This document shows, piece by piece, positions 34,790-49,033 of a stretch of 64,000 bases of DNA. The notes under the pieces are model-generated. The model saw only the letters and a list, made by a program, of their open reading frames with translations. It made no database searches and was not told the DNA's origin. Both the position numbers and the translations under genes were made by a program. Origin of the DNA: Chlorobaculum limnaeum (GTDB taxonomy: Bacteria > Bacteroidota > Chlorobiia > Chlorobiales > Chlorobiaceae); NCBI RefSeq assembly GCF_001747405.1, contig NZ_CP017305.1:1010001-1074000 (forward strand), read 5' to 3'. Each line of letters opens with the position of its first letter. Position 1 is the first letter of the stretch.

Positions 34790-34895
34790 GTTCAGTAGTA
34801 CAATCAGACCATTGTCCCTTGGCATCGCTGATTTTTCCTCGAGCCTTTGATTTCGCTCCCGCAGCTCTTGCCAGTCAAGCGTTTCCGGGGGTACT
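34790..34895 (+). promoter_or_regulatory. Leader of CRISPR array 1
   Basis: This ~106-base segment, beginning GTTCAGTAGTACAATCAGAC and ending GTTTCCGGGGGTACT, abuts the first repeat and is almost repeated before array 2 (38624-38729). About ten mismatches are concentrated in the middle. Conservation next to the first repeat is expected of a leader that promotes transcription and spacer integration. Confidence 0.8.
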
Positions 34896-35749
34896 CTTTA
34901 TAGCTTATTGCACTCGCAGAGGATTGAAACTAATCATGTTTTGGAGCCTTGCTCCAGTAATCTACATCAACTTTATAGCTTATTGCACTCGCAGAGGATT
35001 GAAACCGGGAACGCATCTCCTACAATTTCAGCTATCCCCGCATCTTTATAGCTTATTGCACTCGCAGAGGATTGAAACTTCAGAGATAATAAATATCTTT
35101 TTAAACATTATACTTCTTTATAGCTTATTGCACTCGCAGAGGATTGAAACTTGTAGATTAGCCACCATTCTTGATAGATCAGACGTCCGTTTTTTTCCTT
35201 TATAGCTTATTGCACTCGCAGAGGATTGAAACTCAAGTATCTCCTCGTATGTACCCACAATATCACTTCTTTATAGCTTATTGCACTCGCAGAGGATTGA
35301 AACGAAATTCTCTTGCATCTTTTACTGTAAAGTTTCTATTAGCAGCTTTATAGCTTATTGCACTCGCAGAGGATTGAAACGGCTTGCGTTCCCACGTTTT
35401 CAGCGACCATGGCATATGACTTTATAGCTTATTGCACTCGCAGAGGATTGAAACCAAGCGCATTCCGCGTCTGTCCATGGGCCATACGTGAATCCTTTAT
35501 AGCTTATTGCACTCGCAGAGGATTGAAACGGTCGTATGACGAAAAGTCTTCCGAAGTCCGGTAAGATTCTTTATAGCTTATTGCACTCGCAGAGGATTGA
35601 AACTTTTTCCTGACTGTCACGCTTCGTGCAATACAGCGCGGCCTTTATAGCTTATTGCACTCGCAGAGGATTGAAACTTTTTTCCCGATCCTCGGTACGA
35701 TCCGCGACCAGCTCCTTTATAGCTTATTGCACTCGCAGAGGATTTTCGT
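34896..35749 (+). CRISPR. CRISPR array 1 (12 repeats, 11 spacers)
   Basis: The 35-base repeat begins CTTTATAGCTTATTGCACTC and ends GCAGAGGATTGAAAC. Copies start at 34896, 34971, 35044, 35116, 35198, 35269, 35346, 35420, 35495, 35569, 35643 and 35715. The last copy loses its final GAAAC, which marks the leader-distal end and fixes the orientation as rightward. Spacers are 36-47 bases, as in many type III arrays. Cas6 processing would leave the usual 8-base ATTGAAAC tag. All spacers differ. Confidence 0.98.
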
Positions 35750-35813
35750 TTTTGGCTTGGTTATGGAAAAATTGGCGGATTGTGTTATTTAACTTCATAT
35801 CTTTCAGCCCTTC

Positions 35814-36098
35814 ATGCAATTCATTCTTGTGACCTATGACATCGAGAACGACCGGCGGCGGACGAAAATCCACAAGGTGCTCGAAGGGTATGGGGTTGCC
35901 GTGCAGTACAGTGTGTTCGAATGTTTCCTTTCCGATCAGGATTATGCCACGCTTCGTCACCGGCTGCGGAAACTGATGGATTCAAAACATCCGCTCGACA
36001 GCATTCGCTACTATCGCCTTTGCCGATCATGCGTTGAAAAGGTCGATACCGACGGGAACCGCCCGTTCGCGGTTGCCAGTCCGTTCATTATTGCCTGA
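35814..36098 (+). CDS. cas2: Cas2
   Basis: 94 residues, typical length. FILVTYDIENDRRRTKIHKVLEGYG has the Cas2 ferredoxin-like start and conserved Asp; VQYSVFECFLSDQDY and SIRYYRLCRSC follow. Cas2 dimers bridge two Cas1 dimers in the spacer integrase. It lies between array 1 and the RT-Cas1 gene, all pointing rightward. Confidence 0.95.
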   Translation: MQFILVTYDIENDRRRTKIHKVLEGYGVAVQYSVFECFLSDQDYATLRHRLRKLMDSKHPLDSIRYYRLCRSCVEKVDTDGNRPFAVASPFIIA

Positions 36099-36222: not shown

Positions 36223-36283
36223 TATCTTTCAAGGGCGGCAATTGCAATTTTTTGTTGCCGGAGTAATAACACCTGTTGCCGTT

Positions 36284-38479
36284 ATGGGATGGCTTTACAA
36301 TCAGATGGCGTTGCCTGAAACCATCTTTCAGGCGTGGTACAAAGTGGCGGCAAACGATGGCCGACCCGGTTGGGATAACAAATCCATCGACGATTATTCC
36401 CTTCGGCTCGACGAGAACCTCGCTTCGCTCTCAAAAGCGCTCCTCTCTGGTTCCTACCAGCCCGGCCCGCTGCTGAAACTCGTGATGCTCAAGCCCGACG
36501 GCAACGAGCGGGCGCTGCTCATCCCCGGCGTGATGGATCGGGTAGCGCAAACGGCGGCGGCAATGGTGCTGTCACCGCTTATCGAGGCGGAACTTGGTTC
36601 GAGCACCTTTGCCTACCGGCCCGGTATCTCTCGCCAGGGCGCGGCTCGCGAAATCGAGCGGCTGCACCGCGAAGGCTACCAGTGGGTGCTCGATGCCGAT
36701 ATTCGCAACTTTTTCGATAGCGTCCGCCATGACCTGCTTTTCCAGCGCCTGGCCTCGCTGATTGACGACCGGGAACTGCTTTCGATTCTGCACCGCTGGC
36801 TCACTGCTGAAATCGTCGATGGCGCAACCCCTCGTCGCCGCAATACCATCGGGCTGCCGCAAGGATGCCCCATTTCACCGGCGCTTGCCAACCTCTACCT
36901 CGACCGCTTTGATGAGGCGCTTGAAGGCGAAGGGTTCAAGCTGGTGCGTTTTGCCGACGACTTTCTGGTGCTCTGCAAAACCCGCCCGAAAGCCGAGGCC
37001 GCCCTGAAGCTTTCGGAAAGCGTTCTCGGTGACCTCAAACTCGAACTCAACAGCGAGAAAACCCGCATCACTACGTTTGCCGACGGGTTCAAGTACCTCG
37101 GCTACCTGTTTATCCGGTCGCTGGTGATTCCCACCAAAATGCACCCCGAAGAGTGGTACGACAAGCTTGGCAAGTTCAGGTTGCGCAGGAAAAGTCAGCA
37201 CCTTGTTCCTCCCGACCCCGACGCCATGAGCGACGAACGGGCGCAATTCGAGCTTGAAACCGGCGAGGGCGAACCCATTCAGCTCTCGAAGGCGGACTTG
37301 CTGCAAACCGAGTTTGGCGCGCGGTTGCTCGAAAGCCTCGAGAAAGAGCAGGTGAGCGTTGACGATTTTCTCGACAAGATCGCCCGGCAGGATGAGGAGC
37401 GGCTGCGCGAAAAGCGCGAAGCGTTGAAAAAACTCTACTCCCCGTTCCTCAATACGCTTTATCTGCAAGAGCAGGGGAGCGTCATGCGCAAGGATGGTGA
37501 ACGGTTCAGCATCGAGAAGGAGGGGACGGTGGTCAGCGAGGTCATTGTGCGTCATATCGAGCAGGTGGTGGTGTTCGGAAATGTGGCGCTGACCACGCCG
37601 GTGATGCAGTACTGCCTGCAAAACGAAATCCCCGTCACCTTTCTATCGCAGCATGGCAGCTACTTCGGCAGGCTGGAAGCGACCATGGCCGACAATGCCG
37701 AAATGCAGCGCTTCCAGTTTTTGCGTTCCATCGACGAACCCTTCGCGCTCGAAACCGCCAGAGCCATTGTGGTGGCGAAAATCACCAACAGCCGCACGAT
37801 GATCCGCCGCAGAACGTCAGCAATCCGGGAGCGGGATGGCGAGGTTTACGGCAGGATACAGACGCATCTCGCTCTTATGGGCGACCTTGCCGCAAAGGCG
37901 GAAACCTGCGATGAAATCGACGGGCTTCGTGGTTTTGAAGGCAAGGCATCCGCGCTCTATTTCGAGTGTTACGGTTTGCTGTTTAGCAAGAATCTGCCAT
38001 TTCATACGCCGTCGTTCCAGCGGGTGCGGCGTCCGCCGACCGATCCGGTCAACAGCCTTCTGAGTTTCGGCTACTCGATGCTGCACAATAACGTTTTTTC
38101 GATGGTTCGCCTGTGCGGCATGAACCCGTACATCGGGTTTCTGCACGCCGAACGAAAGGGCAATCCCGGGTTGGTCAACGACCTGGTCGAGGAGTTCCGC
38201 ACGGTGATCGATTCGCTGGTGCTCTACACGCTCAACCGGGGTTTGCTGAAGGAAAACGACTTTTACTGCCGCAAGGATCAGCCCGGTTGTTTTCTCTCGA
38301 ATGACGCCCGAAAACGGTACATCAAGATTTTCGAGGAGCGGATGTGGCAGGAATCGCGCGATGGCAGCACCGGCAAAACGCTGAACTTCCGGCGGCAGAT
38401 GGAAAAACAGGTCAGGATGATGCGCGACGTGATCGCCGGAACTCGTACGCAGTACGATCCGTACCGGTTGAAATGGTAA
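36284..38479 (+). CDS. Reverse transcriptase-Cas1 fusion
   Basis: 731 residues from ATG 36284 (a TTG at 36242 would add 14). Residues ~10-290 are a group II intron-like reverse transcriptase: DADIRNFFDSV, GLPQGCPISPALANLYLD and the polymerase box FADD (223-226). A charged linker (~305-405) leads to Cas1, whose catalytic triad is visible as E552 (GFEGKAS), H621 (GFLHAE) and D633 (NDLVEE). The 69- and 12-residue spacing matches Cas1. No Cas6 domain is fused at the N-terminus; cas6 is separate at 50440. RT-Cas1 proteins of type III systems are known to acquire spacers from RNA. All active-site residues are kept, so adaptation could be functional. Confidence 0.97.
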   Translation: MGWLYNQMALPETIFQAWYKVAANDGRPGWDNKSIDDYSLRLDENLASLSKALLSGSYQPGPLLKLVMLKPDGNERALLIPGVMDRVAQTAAAMVLSPLIEAELGSSTFAYRPGISRQGAAREIERLHREGYQWVLDADIRNFFDSVRHDLLFQRLASLIDDRELLSILHRWLTAEIVDGATPRRRNTIGLPQGCPISPALANLYLDRFDEALEGEGFKLVRFADDFLVLCKTRPKAEAALKLSESVLGDLKLELNSEKTRITTFADGFKYLGYLFIRSLVIPTKMHPEEWYDKLGKFRLRRKSQHLVPPDPDAMSDERAQFELETGEGEPIQLSKADLLQTEFGARLLESLEKEQVSVDDFLDKIARQDEERLREKREALKKLYSPFLNTLYLQEQGSVMRKDGERFSIEKEGTVVSEVIVRHIEQVVVFGNVALTTPVMQYCLQNEIPVTFLSQHGSYFGRLEATMADNAEMQRFQFLRSIDEPFALETARAIVVAKITNSRTMIRRRTSAIRERDGEVYGRIQTHLALMGDLAAKAETCDEIDGLRGFEGKASALYFECYGLLFSKNLPFHTPSFQRVRRPPTDPVNSLLSFGYSMLHNNVFSMVRLCGMNPYIGFLHAERKGNPGLVNDLVEEFRTVIDSLVLYTLNRGLLKENDFYCRKDQPGCFLSNDARKRYIKIFEERMWQESRDGSTGKTLNFRRQMEKQVRMMRDVIAGTRTQYDPYRLKW

Positions 38480-38623: not shown

Positions 38624-38729
38624 GTTCAGTAGTACAATCAGACCATTGTCCCTTGGCATCGCTGATTTTTCCATGAGCTGCGGTTTTGGCTCCCGCAGCC
38701 CTTGCCAGTAAAGCGTTTCCGGGGGTACT
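38624..38729 (+). promoter_or_regulatory. Leader of CRISPR array 2
   Basis: Near-identical copy of 34790-34895, ending GTTTCCGGGGGTACT directly before the first repeat. It lies downstream of RT-cas1, so a new leader-driven transcript begins here. Confidence 0.8.
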
Positions 38730-39136
38730 CTTTATAGCTTATTGCACTCGCAGAGGATTGAAACCTACCACAACTGACATGTTTTTAAAAATAGAGGGTT
38801 TAAAAACTTTATAGCTTATTGCACTCGCAGAGGATTGAAACTGAAAATAATTGTCCATGCCCCTTTTGGGATACGACGTGTCTTTATAGCTTATTGCACT
38901 CGCAGAGGATTGAAACGAACGAAAATACATTATTTACTTTATACAAAGAACTCTTTATAGCTTATTGCACTCGCAGAGGATTGAAACTCATGAGATGAGC
39001 CAGAAAAGGACGTTCTAACAAATGCTTTATAGCTTATTGCACTCGCAGAGGATTGAAACACACGAATGTCCGTTGTTGCTTCTCAAAACATCAAAATACC
39101 TCTTTATAGCTTATTGCGCTCGCAGAGGATTGAGTA
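38730..39136 (+). CRISPR. CRISPR array 2 (6 repeats, 5 spacers)
   Basis: The repeat is the same as in array 1. Copies start at 38730, 38807, 38882, 38953, 39025 and 39102; the last is degenerate (TTGCGCTCG, end GAGTA instead of GAAAC). Spacers are 36-42 bases and differ from those of array 1. The next gene starts 17 bases after the last repeat, so array and effector genes may share a transcript. Confidence 0.97.
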
Positions 39137-39152
39137 ATAAACATCTATTGAA

Positions 39153-40993: not shown

Positions 40994-43288
40994 TTGAAAT
41001 CACAGCTCATGGCGCGTTCAGGTCAAGATATTATCGAGTTCGGCATTACTCTTTTGCGGGAGCACCTCTGGAATGTTTCTGCGGATGTTGCTGAAGCATT
41101 CAGGCTTGCTGGCGTTCGGGAAAGCGAGTTGACGCTTGCCGCGCTGAAATCTCCTTTCGGCGGCGACATGTATTTCAAGCCTGCTCAACTATCAGTAACA
41201 GCAATGAACTATCCTGATAGTGAAGCACCCCCTGATTTTTCGTGCGTTGAACCAGGTGAAGATGAGCATGGGTTAACCGCGCTCGAAAAGTACGGATCGT
41301 TTGTGGCGACCAATGCAAACGAGAGTCTTCCCGTCTGTCATCTGTTCAAAACGGCTGCCGCCATACAGGATTGTTTGCTCGCTGACGGTGACAGTGAAAA
41401 ACCGTTCCTGCTCGTCAGCGCCGATTTTTCCGGCATTCAGGATACGGTATATACCATCTCCTCAAAAGGAGCGCTCAAGACCCTGCGAGCGCGTTCCTTT
41501 ATGCTGGAGCTGCTGACCGAGCACATTGTTTACGAGATTTTGCACTCATGCCAGGCGGAGCGCCAAGCCATTATCTATTCCGGCGGCGGAGGGTTCAGTT
41601 TGCTGCTACCGAACAGAGCTGGCGTTGTCACGGCAATCGAGGGTTATCGTGAAGTGCTGAACCGATGGGCATTACAGGAGTTTTCAGGAAAGTTTTTCAT
41701 CGCATTGGATGCGACGCCGTGCAATGCAGCATCGCTTGAGAGTGAGGCAGATTTTACAGCACTACGGCAATGCCAGTCAGAGAGCTTAGACAAGCTCAAA
41801 CGCCAGAAGTTCCTGAAACAGCTCGACGAGCTGTTCACCCCAACAATGCCAAAACAGTTAACCACCCGAACCGAATGCCAGATCACCAGACGGGATGATT
41901 TATTGCCTGAAAAAATGCGTGATCGCGAAAAAGGTACATTCATGAGTTCTGTTCCTCATGAGCGACGAGATGACGACTGCTATACCTGGCTTTCCGAAAG
42001 TTGTTTCCATCAGTTCAGGTTGGGTGACAAGCTTATCGATGCAAAGAAGGTATATCGGTATGAAGAAAAGCCTGATAAAGATAAAATTGGATATCTGACG
42101 CTTAAAGGTATAAACGATCAGGATGTTTACTACAGCATAGATAAAATTGTGCAGAAAGATGCTGATGTCTGGCAGATCAATTCATGGGAATCGACCAGCC
42201 CGACTGTGCTTTATGCACAGTATGTCCGCAAGCATGGTGAGCTTTCGGATTTCGCAAAAGAGGCCGAAAGAGAATCCATTGAATCCGTTGAGGGTCGAAC
42301 GCCAAAAAATGACGATACAGCCACTTTTGAAGGGCTGGCTTCAAGTTCATGCGGTGCCGATCTCATCGGTGCGTTGCGAATGGATGTCGATGACATGGGT
42401 AAAATGTTCAGCAAAATAGCTTCACTACCTGAGCTATCGGTAAAGTCGCGGATGTTGAACCTGTTTTTCAAGGTTTATCTGAACGAGATATGCGCGGGAA
42501 ATTTGGGCAAAGAAGAAAAACCGACTGATATTGTCGGTAAAAATTATCAGGAAAAGAATCCTGATGGAACAAACAAAGGCCGAAATGTATCCGTGGTTTA
42601 CGTCGGAGGCGATGACCTCTTTATACTCGGAGCCTGGGACGAAACCGCAGAGCTCGCCTTCGACATTCAACGCTGCTTTGCCTGTTTCACCGGAGGCTCA
42701 TTCGACAGCGAGAAAAAAGGTTGCGGAATCTCAGGCGGCCTAACCCTGCACCAGCCAAAGTTCCCACTCTACCAAATGGCCCAAAAATCCGGCGAAGCAG
42801 AGCACGTAGCGAAGAATGATAAAGATACGATCTATGGAGATATAGAAAAAAACAGAATTGCTCTTTTCTACGATGATTCAAAATATCAGCGTAGATTGAA
42901 AATGAAAACGCCTGAACGCTATCGATATATGCTTTCCATGACATGGAATTTGAGTGGCGATTTTCTGATTCCATTGATGAAAACATATTGCGAATGCGGA
43001 AGCCTGAAATCACAAGATGGACGACTGGTACTGGAAATTGATAAATTCAGTTATCAGACCATTGAAAAGTGGTTTGCCGTCATTGAAAAATATCAGGAAA
43101 GCTACATGCTCTATCTCCCGACAATGGCAAGAGTAATGAAACAGGTTGAAGAGGGTAAAAATATGAATGCTGATTTATTTAAAAAATTGTTTAGCTATCT
43201 TTATACAAATGAAGAGAGTAAGAAAAACTGGATTTCACATTTACATATAGCACTTAACTGGCTTTCATTCTTGAGGAGGACAAAATAA
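40994..43288 (+). CDS. cas10: Cas10 (Csm1-type) without HD domain
   Basis: 764 residues from TTG 40994; the first ATG is at 41009. The first Palm block is LLVSADFSGIQDTVYTISSKGALKTLRARSF, typical of Csm1. The second Palm domain holds VVYVGGDDLFILG, with GGDD at 538-541, required for cyclic oligoadenylate synthesis. GALRMDVDDMGKMF is the companion metal-binding motif. No N-terminal HD nuclease motif is seen, so single-stranded DNA cutting is probably absent. A long variable insertion lies at ~260-430. A strong ribosome site for csm2 (GAGGAGGA) is inside its 3' end; the genes overlap by 1 base. Confidence 0.93.
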   Translation: MKSQLMARSGQDIIEFGITLLREHLWNVSADVAEAFRLAGVRESELTLAALKSPFGGDMYFKPAQLSVTAMNYPDSEAPPDFSCVEPGEDEHGLTALEKYGSFVATNANESLPVCHLFKTAAAIQDCLLADGDSEKPFLLVSADFSGIQDTVYTISSKGALKTLRARSFMLELLTEHIVYEILHSCQAERQAIIYSGGGGFSLLLPNRAGVVTAIEGYREVLNRWALQEFSGKFFIALDATPCNAASLESEADFTALRQCQSESLDKLKRQKFLKQLDELFTPTMPKQLTTRTECQITRRDDLLPEKMRDREKGTFMSSVPHERRDDDCYTWLSESCFHQFRLGDKLIDAKKVYRYEEKPDKDKIGYLTLKGINDQDVYYSIDKIVQKDADVWQINSWESTSPTVLYAQYVRKHGELSDFAKEAERESIESVEGRTPKNDDTATFEGLASSSCGADLIGALRMDVDDMGKMFSKIASLPELSVKSRMLNLFFKVYLNEICAGNLGKEEKPTDIVGKNYQEKNPDGTNKGRNVSVVYVGGDDLFILGAWDETAELAFDIQRCFACFTGGSFDSEKKGCGISGGLTLHQPKFPLYQMAQKSGEAEHVAKNDKDTIYGDIEKNRIALFYDDSKYQRRLKMKTPERYRYMLSMTWNLSGDFLIPLMKTYCECGSLKSQDGRLVLEIDKFSYQTIEKWFAVIEKYQESYMLYLPTMARVMKQVEEGKNMNADLFKKLFSYLYTNEESKKNWISHLHIALNWLSFLRRTK

Positions 43289-43763
43289 TGGGATATGATT
43301 TCACGGAGATATATCAAAAAGATAATAAATTTGATATAGATATCAAAGGAATAAAGGAGAAAATCAGTTTGTTTCGCAATTTTAGTTCGATTCCTGAAGA
43401 TGAATTAGAATATTTGCCTAAATATGCTGCTGTTATTGCAACGGCAATGATAAAAAGAAAAAAACAGTTACACCAAACCAGCTTCGTCGCTTTTATACAT
43501 ATATCAAATCAATTGATCTGGCGAACCGGCAAACGGAAGAATCTGTAGTTAATTTTAAAGACAAATACAAGCTTAAATTCATATTGCCAAAAATTGCCGG
43601 AAGTTCTGAACGCGAAAGTCTCGAAGATCTTTATGAAGTTCTCAATGCATGTATTAAGGATAATAAAATCAATTCAGTAAAAGACTTTCGGATATTTATG
43701 GAGTTTTTCGAAGCGATACTCGATTATCATTCTACATTTAAATCTCAAAAACAAGATAACTAA
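43288..43763 (+). pseudogene. csm2: csm2, frameshifted at an A run
   Basis: The first frame (LEYLPKYAAVIATAMIKRKK) matches the Csm2 N-terminal helices but ends early at 43546-43548 after junk residues. From the A7 run at 43458-43464 the next frame reads TVTPNQLRRFYTYIKSIDLA, the hallmark Csm2 segment, and runs to TAA 43761-43763. One more A, or a -1 shift on A-AAA-AAA-C, would join them into a normal ~158-residue Csm2. Csm2 forms the inner filament of the complex. It could be a mutation, sequencing error or true slippage. Confidence 0.88.
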
Positions 43764-43775
43764 GGAGCATATCCA

Positions 43776-44624
43776 ATGTCAGATGTAGAAAGAATGATTA
43801 AACTTCTCGGTTATATTAAAATCACTGGCGAAATTGAAGCCTTGACCGGGTTGCATATCGGTGGTACAGCAGATTCAATCGATAAAGGAGGGATTGATAA
43901 TCCTGTTATAAAAAATCCTGTGACTAATGAACCATACATTCCAGGGAGTTCTCTGCGCGGAAGAATACGCTCTCTTCTGGAGAAAAAAACAGCCCAGATT
44001 CTTTCGCCAATGACCAATAATAAAGAGATTTGGATGGAGATTTATAAATCTGATGATGATAAATATAAAGGCAACAAGGCGCAATCCACAATAGATGCAA
44101 TGAATTCCGCAGTTTGTCGTATTTTTGGCAATTCAGCTTCTTATGAAAATGTGCCTTCAGTGCTGATTGTGAGGGACGCTCTTTACACAGATAAGACACG
44201 AGACCAATATATGCAAGGAGGTAAAGGCGGTTTGCCAATTACAGAAGCAAAAATGGAAATCGCAGTCGATAGAATCACAGCCCATGCCTTACCGCGAACC
44301 ATTGAACGTGTACCTGCTGGAGCAAAGTTTTTATTTGAAATTGTTTATAAAATCCAATCTACATCATTTATCTCAATGATTGATGAAAATGGTATAGTTA
44401 AAAAAATAAATAAATATATCGCAGATGATAAAGTGATTAAAAAGGATATTGAGAATCTTTTGTGGGCATTAAAGCAAATCGAAGAACACGATGGACTTGG
44501 TGGAAATACCTCTCGCGGACATGGTCAGGTCAAGTTTTCTGTTAGTCCTTTAAATTGCGAGGTATTTGAAAGTGAATATAAACCGAAAATTGAGGATATT
44601 GTCAATGAAATCAACAATAAATGA
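43776..44624 (+). CDS. csm3: Csm3
   Basis: 282 residues, RAMP (Cas7) backbone subunit. GEIEALTGLHIGGTADSIDK, then GIDNPVIKNPVTNEPYIPGS and SLRGRIRSLLEKK, are the family core. Asp33 (IGGTAD) occupies the position of the target-RNA-cleaving Asp of Csm3. The glycine-rich loop GGNTSRGHGQVKF is near the C-terminus. Preceded by AAGGAG. AT-rich relative to the left half of the locus. Confidence 0.95.
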   Translation: MSDVERMIKLLGYIKITGEIEALTGLHIGGTADSIDKGGIDNPVIKNPVTNEPYIPGSSLRGRIRSLLEKKTAQILSPMTNNKEIWMEIYKSDDDKYKGNKAQSTIDAMNSAVCRIFGNSASYENVPSVLIVRDALYTDKTRDQYMQGGKGGLPITEAKMEIAVDRITAHALPRTIERVPAGAKFLFEIVYKIQSTSFISMIDENGIVKKINKYIADDKVIKKDIENLLWALKQIEEHDGLGGNTSRGHGQVKFSVSPLNCEVFESEYKPKIEDIVNEINNK

Positions 44625-44645
44625 AATCGGCTTAATTGCTGTGAT

Positions 44646-45701
44646 ATGAAAACATATATTGTTCATCTCTACTTTAAGAACGCTTTGCGTGTTGGCGCGG
44701 CTAATGCAAGCATTGATATTGAGGCAACTCAGGATTTTATTCATTCTGATACGCTCTGGGCGGCTATTGCTAATCATTGGGCGATCTTGGGTAACGTGAA
44801 TGGTATTTCTTTTGATGAGTTTTTAAGTGGTTTTGGCTCAAAGGAAGGTGAGCCAAAAAGCGATCCACTTTTTCTTCTTTCATCAGCGTTTCCTCTAACG
44901 GAAAATGGTATTAAGTATTGGCTTCCAAAACCATTATCAGTTCCGATGGCCTTTTCAAAAAGTAATACGAATGATCCCGAACATCAACGTGAAACGTATG
45001 GAAAAAAGGTAAAACAGGAAAAGTTTATTCCACTCAATGTCTTCAAAGATTGGATAAACTTTGAAAAAAATGCAAGTGATGTTGGAAGTTTAGAACGAAA
45101 CGGGATTTCTGGCGGTCAAATACGACCTCATGCTACTCTCGATAGAATTTCAATGCAAGCACAACTGTTTCACTCTGGTATAACATATTTTGATAAGTTT
45201 GAAGAGCGCGTTGGCCTTTATTTTCTTGTTCGCTGCAATGAGAACACAAAAACTTCACTTGAGAAAATTTTTGAAGTGATTTATAATGCTGGCGCTATTG
45301 GCGGTGACAGGAGCATTGGTCTCGGTGCACTGGCTGAAAAACCATTTTTTATAGAAGCTACTGCATTTGATGATCTTTTCAGTACAGAAAACAGCAACGC
45401 TCATTGCCTATTATCACTTTCTTGTCCTAATAATGATGAGATACCAAAAGACCAAGATGTAATTGCTTATAATACCATATTGCGTAAAGGATGGACAGGT
45501 TCTCTCTCAATCGGATTGCAGCGAAAACGTCAAACAATATACATGTTCTCCGAAGGTAGCGTATTTAGAAAACCAATAAAAGGTAGCTTAGTAGATATAA
45601 CTCCTGACCGAAGTATTACGCCTGAATGGAATGGAATGCACAATGTCTATCGCTACGGTTATGCATTGAGTGTGCCGGTTAAAATTGATTTAAATGATTG
45701 A
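44646..45701 (+). CDS. csm4: Csm4
   Basis: 351 residues, Cas5-like RAMP that caps the crRNA 5' tag. HLYFKNALRVGAANASIDIE and FIHSDTLWAAIANHW are diagnostic (the SDTL motif). NGISGGQIRPHATLDRISMQ and the G-rich GAIGGDRSIGLGAL follow. It overlaps csm5 by 8 bases. Intact. Confidence 0.93.
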   Translation: MKTYIVHLYFKNALRVGAANASIDIEATQDFIHSDTLWAAIANHWAILGNVNGISFDEFLSGFGSKEGEPKSDPLFLLSSAFPLTENGIKYWLPKPLSVPMAFSKSNTNDPEHQRETYGKKVKQEKFIPLNVFKDWINFEKNASDVGSLERNGISGGQIRPHATLDRISMQAQLFHSGITYFDKFEERVGLYFLVRCNENTKTSLEKIFEVIYNAGAIGGDRSIGLGALAEKPFFIEATAFDDLFSTENSNAHCLLSLSCPNNDEIPKDQDVIAYNTILRKGWTGSLSIGLQRKRQTIYMFSEGSVFRKPIKGSLVDITPDRSITPEWNGMHNVYRYGYALSVPVKIDLND

Positions 45702-47577
45702 AAATATGATAAGTAAAATCATTGAACTTGAAACACTTACCCCTCTTTTTATAAAAGGGAAAGAAGAAAAGTATGGTGAGGGATTTATCAGAATTGGTGA
45801 AGAATTGTTTTCTGTTGATAACGATAAACTCTGCGAATTCATTTATAACAACACATATGATATAGTAGGGAATAAAACAATAGGCAAGCCGGATTATGTC
45901 GAGTTCTACAGTGATTTTTTATTAAAAGAGCAAAACAATGAAAAGCTCTCTTGCTATAATAAATTTGCAAGAGAATTTGGATTTGATGAAAAAAATGATT
46001 ACAGAAAAATTCCGGAGAGATATAAGGAAAAATCGATCCAGTATTTTTTATTGAGCACAAGACTTCTTCAAGGAAATAACGTAGATAAAAAAAGGGTTAT
46101 GATTGAGCATAAAATTGCTAAAGGAATAACCCGTTTAGAGCAAAGTAATAGAAGTGGAAACAGATTTATACAAAATGGTAATAACAGGCGCTATATTCCT
46201 GGAAGTTCTATTAAAGGTGCAATTCGAAATGCGGTTCTGTGGAAAATCTTATCGGAATACTCAAAAAAAGTATGGCTCCAATCATTTGTTAAATACCATC
46301 TTTCTGTAGTAGATGTTTTATCAAAAGTTTCAGATTTGATTGATCAACGAGAATTTCACCAAGCGCAAATACTGATCAATCAAAATGCGGTATTAAGTCA
46401 AGCTCATTTAATAAATGGTAATAGAATCGATAAAGAAAAGTTAAGTGAATTAAAAAAGAAATACGCGGAGTTTTTCTCTGATAAACAAGATACTGAGCAA
46501 CAAACGATGAAGTCTATTAGTTTCACTGAGTTTACTCCTAGTATTCTTATATCTGATTCGTTTGTTGATGATTATAATAAATATTTAGATAGTTATAATA
46601 AAAGATGGAATGATGCTAATGATACCTTGCGTGACTTCTTTAGACTTGTAAAAGTAAGCGATGCGAATTTTGTTCAGGATTGTAATTTGAAAGCCGAAAA
46701 CGGCGAAGGCCGTCTGCAAAGATACATCTGGTACCCCTCAAAGAAACCAAACTTACCAAAAAAAATTTGATATAAAAATTGAATGTGTTCCCAAGGCGAT
46801 AAAAGCACAATTCAAAATATCCATTGATACTGAACTGGCAAAAGCATTTTTCCCTGATGGTGCTCCTTCTTACTTACAAGATATTGACCAGCTATTAAAA
46901 GTAGTTGATGAATTTTTCAGAGCCATTGTAAAATATGAAGATGTAAATTATTATCAGGGAGCGACATCTATTCCCGAGGATATAAATCCTGAAGACAACA
47001 GAAAGGCAAAACTCAGAGTCAATACATCTGATGTTTGGCAATTGTATAAATCAATATTCGGACTTCAGTCAGATGAGATATTGTTTCGAACTGGTTGGGG
47101 TGGAGGATATATGAGCAAAACGCAGTTTTTACACTTGAAAAACCCCGACAAGGTGCGTGTTAGAGATATGATTCATCCCAATGGTAGCTCCATTGCCCCA
47201 AAATCGCGTTGCCTGATAGTTGAAGGGCAAAATGCAACAGAACCACTTGGCTGGTGCAAGCTCAGGGTTTTGGGAGACGCAAAAGATATGCCACGTCCAA
47301 GTATTGATACGGCAACAATAAAAACAGAGTTAATAACCAAGCAAAATATGCAAAACGCAAAAGGTAATTATATAAATTCAGGAAAACCCTTAACAGAAAG
47401 AGAAGTTCAGAAGTCAAATGCTACAGCAAAAGCTATTTTAAAACAAGCCGAGAAAAAAAATACAAACGCTACTCATATCAAATATAAAGTAGGGCAAACA
47501 GTTTATGCTACAGTGGAAGAATGTGTTCCATTGACTTCGCTTAAAGTGATAATTGGTGATCAAGTACTAAACATTAA

Positions 47578-48935
47578 GGCTCTTCGCAGAATTTAATGGG
47601 CTGGTAGTAAAAATGAGTGGCTTGGTGTAATTTATCCAAGAACGCCAAAACACTAACCCCAACGTATGCCGAGCCTCATTACCCATTACCAGCAGTTATT
47701 AGGATTACCAGAAACATGGAAGGTGTCTGATGTCCGGCTGTCGACGTCCGGCCCCCGGATAGAAATCCATCTGGAGTATATCGGACCCAAAGTCGAATGC
47801 CCTGAATGCGGCAAGGCCGGACGAATTTATGACCTGGCGCCAGAACAACGGTGGCGGCATCTGGATACCATGGAGTACGAGACGCATCTGATAGCCAGGG
47901 TGCCTCGGTGTGAGTGCAAAGAGCACAGGATCAAGACAATTCAAGTTCCGTGGGCAACGCGCTATTCGCGCTACACCCTGAAGTTTGAAGCGCTTGCTGT
48001 CGAGTTGCTTCAGGAGTGTTCAAGCATTCAGTCGGCATCGAGGCTCTTGCGATTGAACTGGCATGCAACCAACGAGATCATGAACCGTGCAGTTAAGCGA
48101 GGCCTGAGCCGCCGGAATAAGGAGGCGATTGCTCATCTTGGTCTTGATGAAAAGAGCTTCCGGGCAGGCCATCAGTATGTGACGATCCTGAACGACCTGA
48201 AAGGTGGCCGGGTACTTGAGGTGGTCCAGAGCCGAACGACCGATGGAGCAGAAGCGCTACTCCTCAGCTTTGAAGCATCGCAACGCCAGGGTGTGAAATC
48301 GATCTCGATGGATATGTGGAAACCCTTCGCGATTGCTGCCAAAAAGCATCTGCCGCAGGCCGATATTGTGCATGACCGTTTCCATATCAGCAAATATCTG
48401 AACGAGGCGGTCGACACGGTTCGTCGCCAAGAGTCCCGTCAACTTCATCATGCAGGGGACAGGACTCTGATTGGCTCGAAATTCACCTGGCTGCGCAATC
48501 CGGAGAACATGACGGAAAGCCAGCGGACAAGCTTTGATCAATTGATGGCCTGTGAGCTGAAAACCGGAAAAGCCTGGTCGATGAAGAACATGTTTCGGGA
48601 GTTCTGGCGGCTGGGTTGTCGAGAGAGTGCAAGCTTCTTTTTCGATTACTGGTCTGAACGCGTTGACCAGTTAGCGTTGAAACCCATGATCAAGGTCAAA
48701 GAGCTGCTGAAGCGGCATCTCGACAACATCCTGAACTATTTCGAGCACGAAATGACCAACGCAGTTTCCGAAGGTCTGAACAGCAAGATCCAGTTGTACA
48801 AAGCATCGGCCCGTGGGTTCCACAGCTTTCACAGCTACCGCATAAGGATTTTGTTTTACTGTGGAAAGCTCAACATGGCTATTACCGGTTGACGTAATTG
48901 CTGACGAGCGTTACCATTAAATCTTACGAAGAACC
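47578..48935 (+). mobile_element. ISL3-family insertion sequence in csm5
   Basis: 1358 bases. The left end begins GGCTCTTCGCAGAATTTAAT and the right end, reverse-complemented, begins GGTTCTTCGTAAGATTTAAT (16 of 20 identical). Both flanks carry AACATTAA (47570-47577 and 48936-48943), an 8-base target duplication as expected for ISL3. Higher GC than the surrounding csm genes. The perfect duplication suggests a fairly recent insertion. Confidence 0.96.
47666..48892 (+). CDS. ISL3-family transposase
   Basis: 408 residues, full length. An N-terminal zinc finger (CPECGKAGRIYD ... CEC) precedes the DDE domain: GLDEKSFRAGHQYVTIL, SMDMWKPFAIAAKKHLP, and VSEGLNSKIQLYKASARGF hold the Asp, Asp and Glu. 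It appears intact and lies in the same direction as the csm genes, so read-through from it could still reach csm6 and cas6. Confidence 0.95.
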   Translation: MPSLITHYQQLLGLPETWKVSDVRLSTSGPRIEIHLEYIGPKVECPECGKAGRIYDLAPEQRWRHLDTMEYETHLIARVPRCECKEHRIKTIQVPWATRYSRYTLKFEALAVELLQECSSIQSASRLLRLNWHATNEIMNRAVKRGLSRRNKEAIAHLGLDEKSFRAGHQYVTILNDLKGGRVLEVVQSRTTDGAEALLLSFEASQRQGVKSISMDMWKPFAIAAKKHLPQADIVHDRFHISKYLNEAVDTVRRQESRQLHHAGDRTLIGSKFTWLRNPENMTESQRTSFDQLMACELKTGKAWSMKNMFREFWRLGCRESASFFFDYWSERVDQLALKPMIKVKELLKRHLDNILNYFEHEMTNAVSEGLNSKIQLYKASARGFHSFHSYRIRILFYCGKLNMAITG

Positions 48936-49033
48936 AACATTAATAAGGGTGTAATAAAACAAAAAGGAGAAACTGTTCAAATTCAAATAACTGAAATTGA
49001 AAACGGGAAAATTCTGGCAGCAAAACTTTTCTG

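Follow-up and report, generated by a model that had tools for sequence, protein, structure and literature searches.

Does the csm2 gene of the type III-A CRISPR-Cas locus of the green sulfur bacterium Chlorobaculum limnaeum, whose conserved domain is out of frame with its own start, yield protein by recoding, is it misread in the deposited sequence, or is it dead? A first-pass annotation had raised all three outcomes, and here they are weighed against the state of the rest of the locus. The window, i.e., the whole stretch of DNA that was analysed, is 64,000 nucleotides long (assembly GCF_001747405.1, contig NZ_CP017305.1, positions 1,010,001 to 1,074,000), and the parts of the locus described below lie on its + strand and are given in window positions.

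The csm2 reading frame

The csm2 0-frame (43288-43548) begins with the ATG at 43288, passes through seven A's at 43458-43464 that are followed by a C (read in the sequence) and ends at the stop at 43548. The resulting 86-aa open reading frame has no match in Pfam or NCBIfam. Its residues 1-59 are a genuine Csm2 N-terminus (44% identical to residues 1-59 of Csm2 from G009, a genome of the same genus), and 27 out-of-frame residues and the stop follow. The conserved Csm2 domain sits in the -1 frame at 43464-43760, as the annotation had said of the Csm2 hallmark and as the profile matches bear out (Pfam PF03750, E 8.9e-22; NCBIfam TIGR01870, E 7.7e-11). This frame is without stops up to 43760 and has no in-frame start codon upstream of the domain. 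Internal re-initiation of the Csm2 core was considered and rejected, as the -1 frame contains no ATG, GTG or TTG between its stop at 43419 and a TTG at 43584 that is already inside the core.

The A7 run had been described as a classic slippery context. The 0-frame codons at the run are AGA AAA AAA CAG, so the heptamer that is in phase is A_AAA_AAA, but the canonical A_AAA_AAC is out of phase. The A7C motif is also unremarkable in number (six in the window versus 4.1 expected, with 21 of 100 shuffles having as many), and it is present in the intact cas10 (42846) and csm3 (43983) genes as well.

The break had also been placed at the run itself. csm2 orthologs were gathered by a search of genomes, and six of them, including the syntenic G009 gene, had their frames read directly; csm2 is one open frame in all six, and none of their linkers contains an A7 run. 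In genome G070 the csm2 match is contained in an open frame of 177 aa. The linker that holds the A7 run and joins YAAVIA to VTPNQL is 26 nt long in C. limnaeum (43441-43466), 12 nt in two of the six orthologs and 18 nt in the other four. Thus, break and run are both present, but the break is not placeable exactly at the A7. Since either length difference (14 or 8 nt) leads to the -1 frame, csm2 may have undergone a larger change in A-rich sequence and not the loss of one A. A profile scan of genome contigs and viral contigs with the Csm2 alignment gave no confirmed relatives, and no second csm2 or cas6 copy was found in the whole genome (2,797,276 bases, one contig).

Other lesions in the locus

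The window contains cas2, an RT-Cas1 fusion, two CRISPR arrays with an identical repeat and a type III-A operon (cas10, csm2, csm3, csm4, csm5, a CARF protein and cas6). Array 1 (12 repeats, 34897-35750), cas2 (35814-36098, intact, 91% aa identity to G009), the RT-cas1 fusion (36242-38479, intact) and array 2 (six repeats, 38731-39137) precede cas10/csm1 (40994-43288), which is open and, like the equally long G009 copy, is without an N-terminal HD domain. A 141-nt leader-like stretch is duplicated with 93% identity (34790-34930 and 38624-38764) at the starts of the two arrays, which flank cas2 and RT-cas1. Downstream of csm2 lie csm3 (43776-44624) and csm4 (44646-45701), both intact and 90% and 96% identical in aa sequence to G009, respectively. 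All of cas10/csm1 and csm2 through csm5 are recognised by Pfam or NCBIfam, csm2 and csm5 as split frames only. The effector subunits are not all open: csm2, csm5 and also cas6 are frame-broken, and csm5 is in addition interrupted by an insertion sequence.

The same locus is found at the corresponding chromosomal place in G009, with gene order and flanks conserved, and the G009 cas10, csm3, csm4, RT-cas1 and cas2 products are 90-96% identical in aa sequence to those of C. limnaeum. The difference between the two is in csm2, csm5 and cas6, which in G009 are single open frames of 149, 657 and 270 aa. Comparison with G009 locates the further lesions as follows: The csm5 N-terminal part is in the 0-frame (45694-46770; TIGR01899 positions 2-191) and its C-terminal part is in the +1 frame (46701-47577, as far as the insertion), and DNA alignment shows four A's at 46697-46700 where G009 has three. 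The A8 at 46758-46765 was rejected as the site of this break, since the intact G009 gene has the same A8 and differs upstream at A3/A4. About 30 codons before its end, csm5 contains an ISL3-family insertion sequence (47578-48935; transposase 47666-48892, NF033550 E 5e-101), delimited by the empty site in G009 and flanked by an 8 bp target duplication, AACATTAA (left copy 47570-47577, right copy 48936-48943), after which the csm5 tail codons resume to 49034. csm5 thus has two independent lesions, the A4/A3 indel and the ISL3 insertion. In cas6, the N-terminal ~225 codons are in frame (50440-51116), the alignment has a net one extra base relative to G009 at GGGGAACCCCC (51111-51121), and the C-terminal part is in the +1 frame (51122-51274). 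The broken cas6 frame reads without a stop into the downstream acetyltransferase open reading frame to 52377, making a chimeric 645-aa frame (50440-52377).

Twenty-seven copies of the ISL3 element, 99-100% identical, are present in the genome; their near-identity implies recent mobility, pointing to a recent burst. These copies were not used as an internal control of sequence accuracy, since a 454 assembly collapses repeats that exceed the read length. The CARF protein between csm5 and cas6 (49034-50443, Csm6/TIGR02710-like) is open; its first ~328 residues are 69% identical to G009 and its C-terminal part aligns with genome G043, not with G009, which suggests a swap of the effector domain.

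How old are these lesions? The ratio dN/dS against G009 is 0.14-0.36 for most segments and 0.22 for csm2 after the break, and the out-of-frame segments have gained no secondary stops, so the lesions are either recent or not real. dS against G009 is a mosaic among neighbouring genes within 40994-45701, from 0.10 (csm4) to 0.77 (csm2), and this unevenness between adjacent csm genes suggests recombination.

Is the break a sequencing error?

The genome of strain DSM 1677T was determined from 454 GS FLX+ reads at >60x coverage, assembled with Newbler, with Sanger sequencing for gap closure only (PMC5473272). Sequencing by 454 alone makes a homopolymer miscall, with a true csm2 gene that is open, a serious rival, and the absence of additional stops in the -1 frame also fits it. 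The background rate of frame breaks was taken from the rest of the genome, sampled outside the window as 36 stretches of 20 kb (720 kb, 557 kb of it coding). A detector of frame breaks, a coding-potential HMM run with typical and AT-rich settings, made 26 calls in the 720 kb, and after removal of gene boundaries (many of the minus-strand calls) and weak calls about three credible breaks were left in the 557 kb: a glycosyltransferase at a T6 run (L087), cas7e at an A6 run (L091/L103) and a ComM-like gene (L082). Two of these are at six-base A/T runs, as a miscall would predict. The names other than cas7e were read by eye; the ComM-like and glycosyltransferase-like breaks are near L082 11017 and L087 18720. 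The cas7e gene belongs to a second CRISPR system, of type I-E, in which cas7e and cas5e share one 587-aa open frame (L103:6931-8694; genome 2,356,931-2,358,694); the usual Cas7e C-terminus is apparently in the +1 frame after the A6 run, and a real break, a 454 error and recoding are all candidate causes.

The detector found 65 of 144 simulated one-base losses (a sensitivity of 45%, weak in AT-rich genes). Scaled for this sensitivity, about 0.1 breaks are expected in the 9.6 kb of the locus versus three seen (P 7e-5 to 1e-3). When the test is restricted to A/T runs of at least seven and to csm2 alone it is not significant (P 0.19-0.34). Against a miscall, 45 of the 48 coding A/T runs of seven or more in the sample are in intact frames, and only one is near a frameshift call, which is explicable as a gene boundary. 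In addition, one more A in csm2 would give a linker of nine residues, longer than the four or six in the six orthologs. In csm5 the break falls at an A4, not at a long homopolymer, and the insertion there is structural, so sequencing error fails to explain the locus as a whole. A wrong base call, the annotation's third outcome, is thus conceivable for the csm2 A-run but does not account for the whole locus; we consider it improbable, perhaps one chance in six, as the explanation of csm2. Breakage of the locus as a whole is very probably genuine, and the exact base count of the csm2 A-run is less firm.

Recoding and phase variation

Could programmed -1 ribosomal frameshifting, or transcript slippage, at A_AAA_AAA yield limited amounts of full-length Csm2, as had been proposed? 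The heptamer is in the right phase, a -1 slip at it enters the Csm2 frame directly, and that frame is open to the end of the domain. As in the A-rich heptamer of dnaX-type programmed frameshifting (A_AAA_AAG), the csm2 heptamer is in phase, but csm2 differs from dnaX in having no detected stimulatory structure and no conservation of the site, and its 0-frame product is not a known functional protein. The predicted RNA fold of the 81 nt downstream is that of shuffled sequences (z 0.00 in a plain, pseudoknot-free fold), and no Shine-Dalgarno-like stimulator was seen by eye upstream. All six orthologs have a single frame and no A7 in the linker, and the genome sample has A_AAA_AAA in phase at four sites in genes whose frames are intact. 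With csm5 and cas6 broken too, small regulated amounts of Csm2 would find no partners for assembly. A literature search on programmed frameshifting in cas genes found nothing. The proposal consequently does not hold up: programmed recoding of csm2 is unlikely, and we would give it only a few chances in a hundred, although the heptamer would be compatible with some slippage in vivo.

Reversible phase variation through replication slippage at the A-run is about as improbable. A homopolymer inside an interference gene speaks for it, but a contingency locus would be expected to have a longer run than seven A's, the orthologs do not conserve the run, and the csm5 and cas6 breaks have no comparable repeat. 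Single-A deletions are, on the other hand, common among laboratory CRISPR escapers (PMC3784566). Hardly credible is a living, dosage-limited system in which slippage at the A7 would supply a little complete Csm2, carrying an unusual basic linker, and the breaks in csm5 and cas6 would be sequencing errors or tolerated.

A probably decaying locus and its known parallels

We conclude with a probability of roughly three in four that csm2 has truly been inactivated by a change in length, and that this is one lesion among at least four in an RT-Cas1/type III-A locus in decay. In this reading the change, net -1 in frame, would have struck the short, A-rich linker that immediately precedes the conserved core of Csm2, and the csm5 indel, the insertion in csm5 and the cas6 indel would be further independent inactivating lesions in genes of the same pathway. 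Independent lesions of this kind are indeed found in these neighbours. Lacking intact forms of the small subunit, of Csm5 and of Cas6, the cell would not make the Csm interference complex, as the annotation had foreseen in its second outcome; with csm5 and cas6 also broken this is the best supported of the three, predicted from sequence. The adaptation genes for RT-Cas1 and Cas2 stay open. The A7 run would be incidental composition, and may have been a site of mutational rather than translational slippage. CRISPR biology should not be read from the deposited C. limnaeum genome until it has been resequenced.

Lesions of the same classes are known from the laboratory. Plasmid-escape mutants of the Staphylococcus epidermidis type III-A system include single-A deletion frameshifts in csm2, IS256 in csm5 and a single-A frameshift in cas6 (PMC3784566), and the same classes hit the same three genes in C. 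limnaeum. The differences are that C. limnaeum combines several lesions in one genome and that selection was not observed there. The match in lesion classes makes this an ordinary example of the loss of CRISPR interference: the csm2 case looks like a plain dead or dying defence locus, not a special translation trick. It adds another natural instance in which the interference module has been lost while the adaptation genes are still open, by lesion types already familiar from laboratory escapers.
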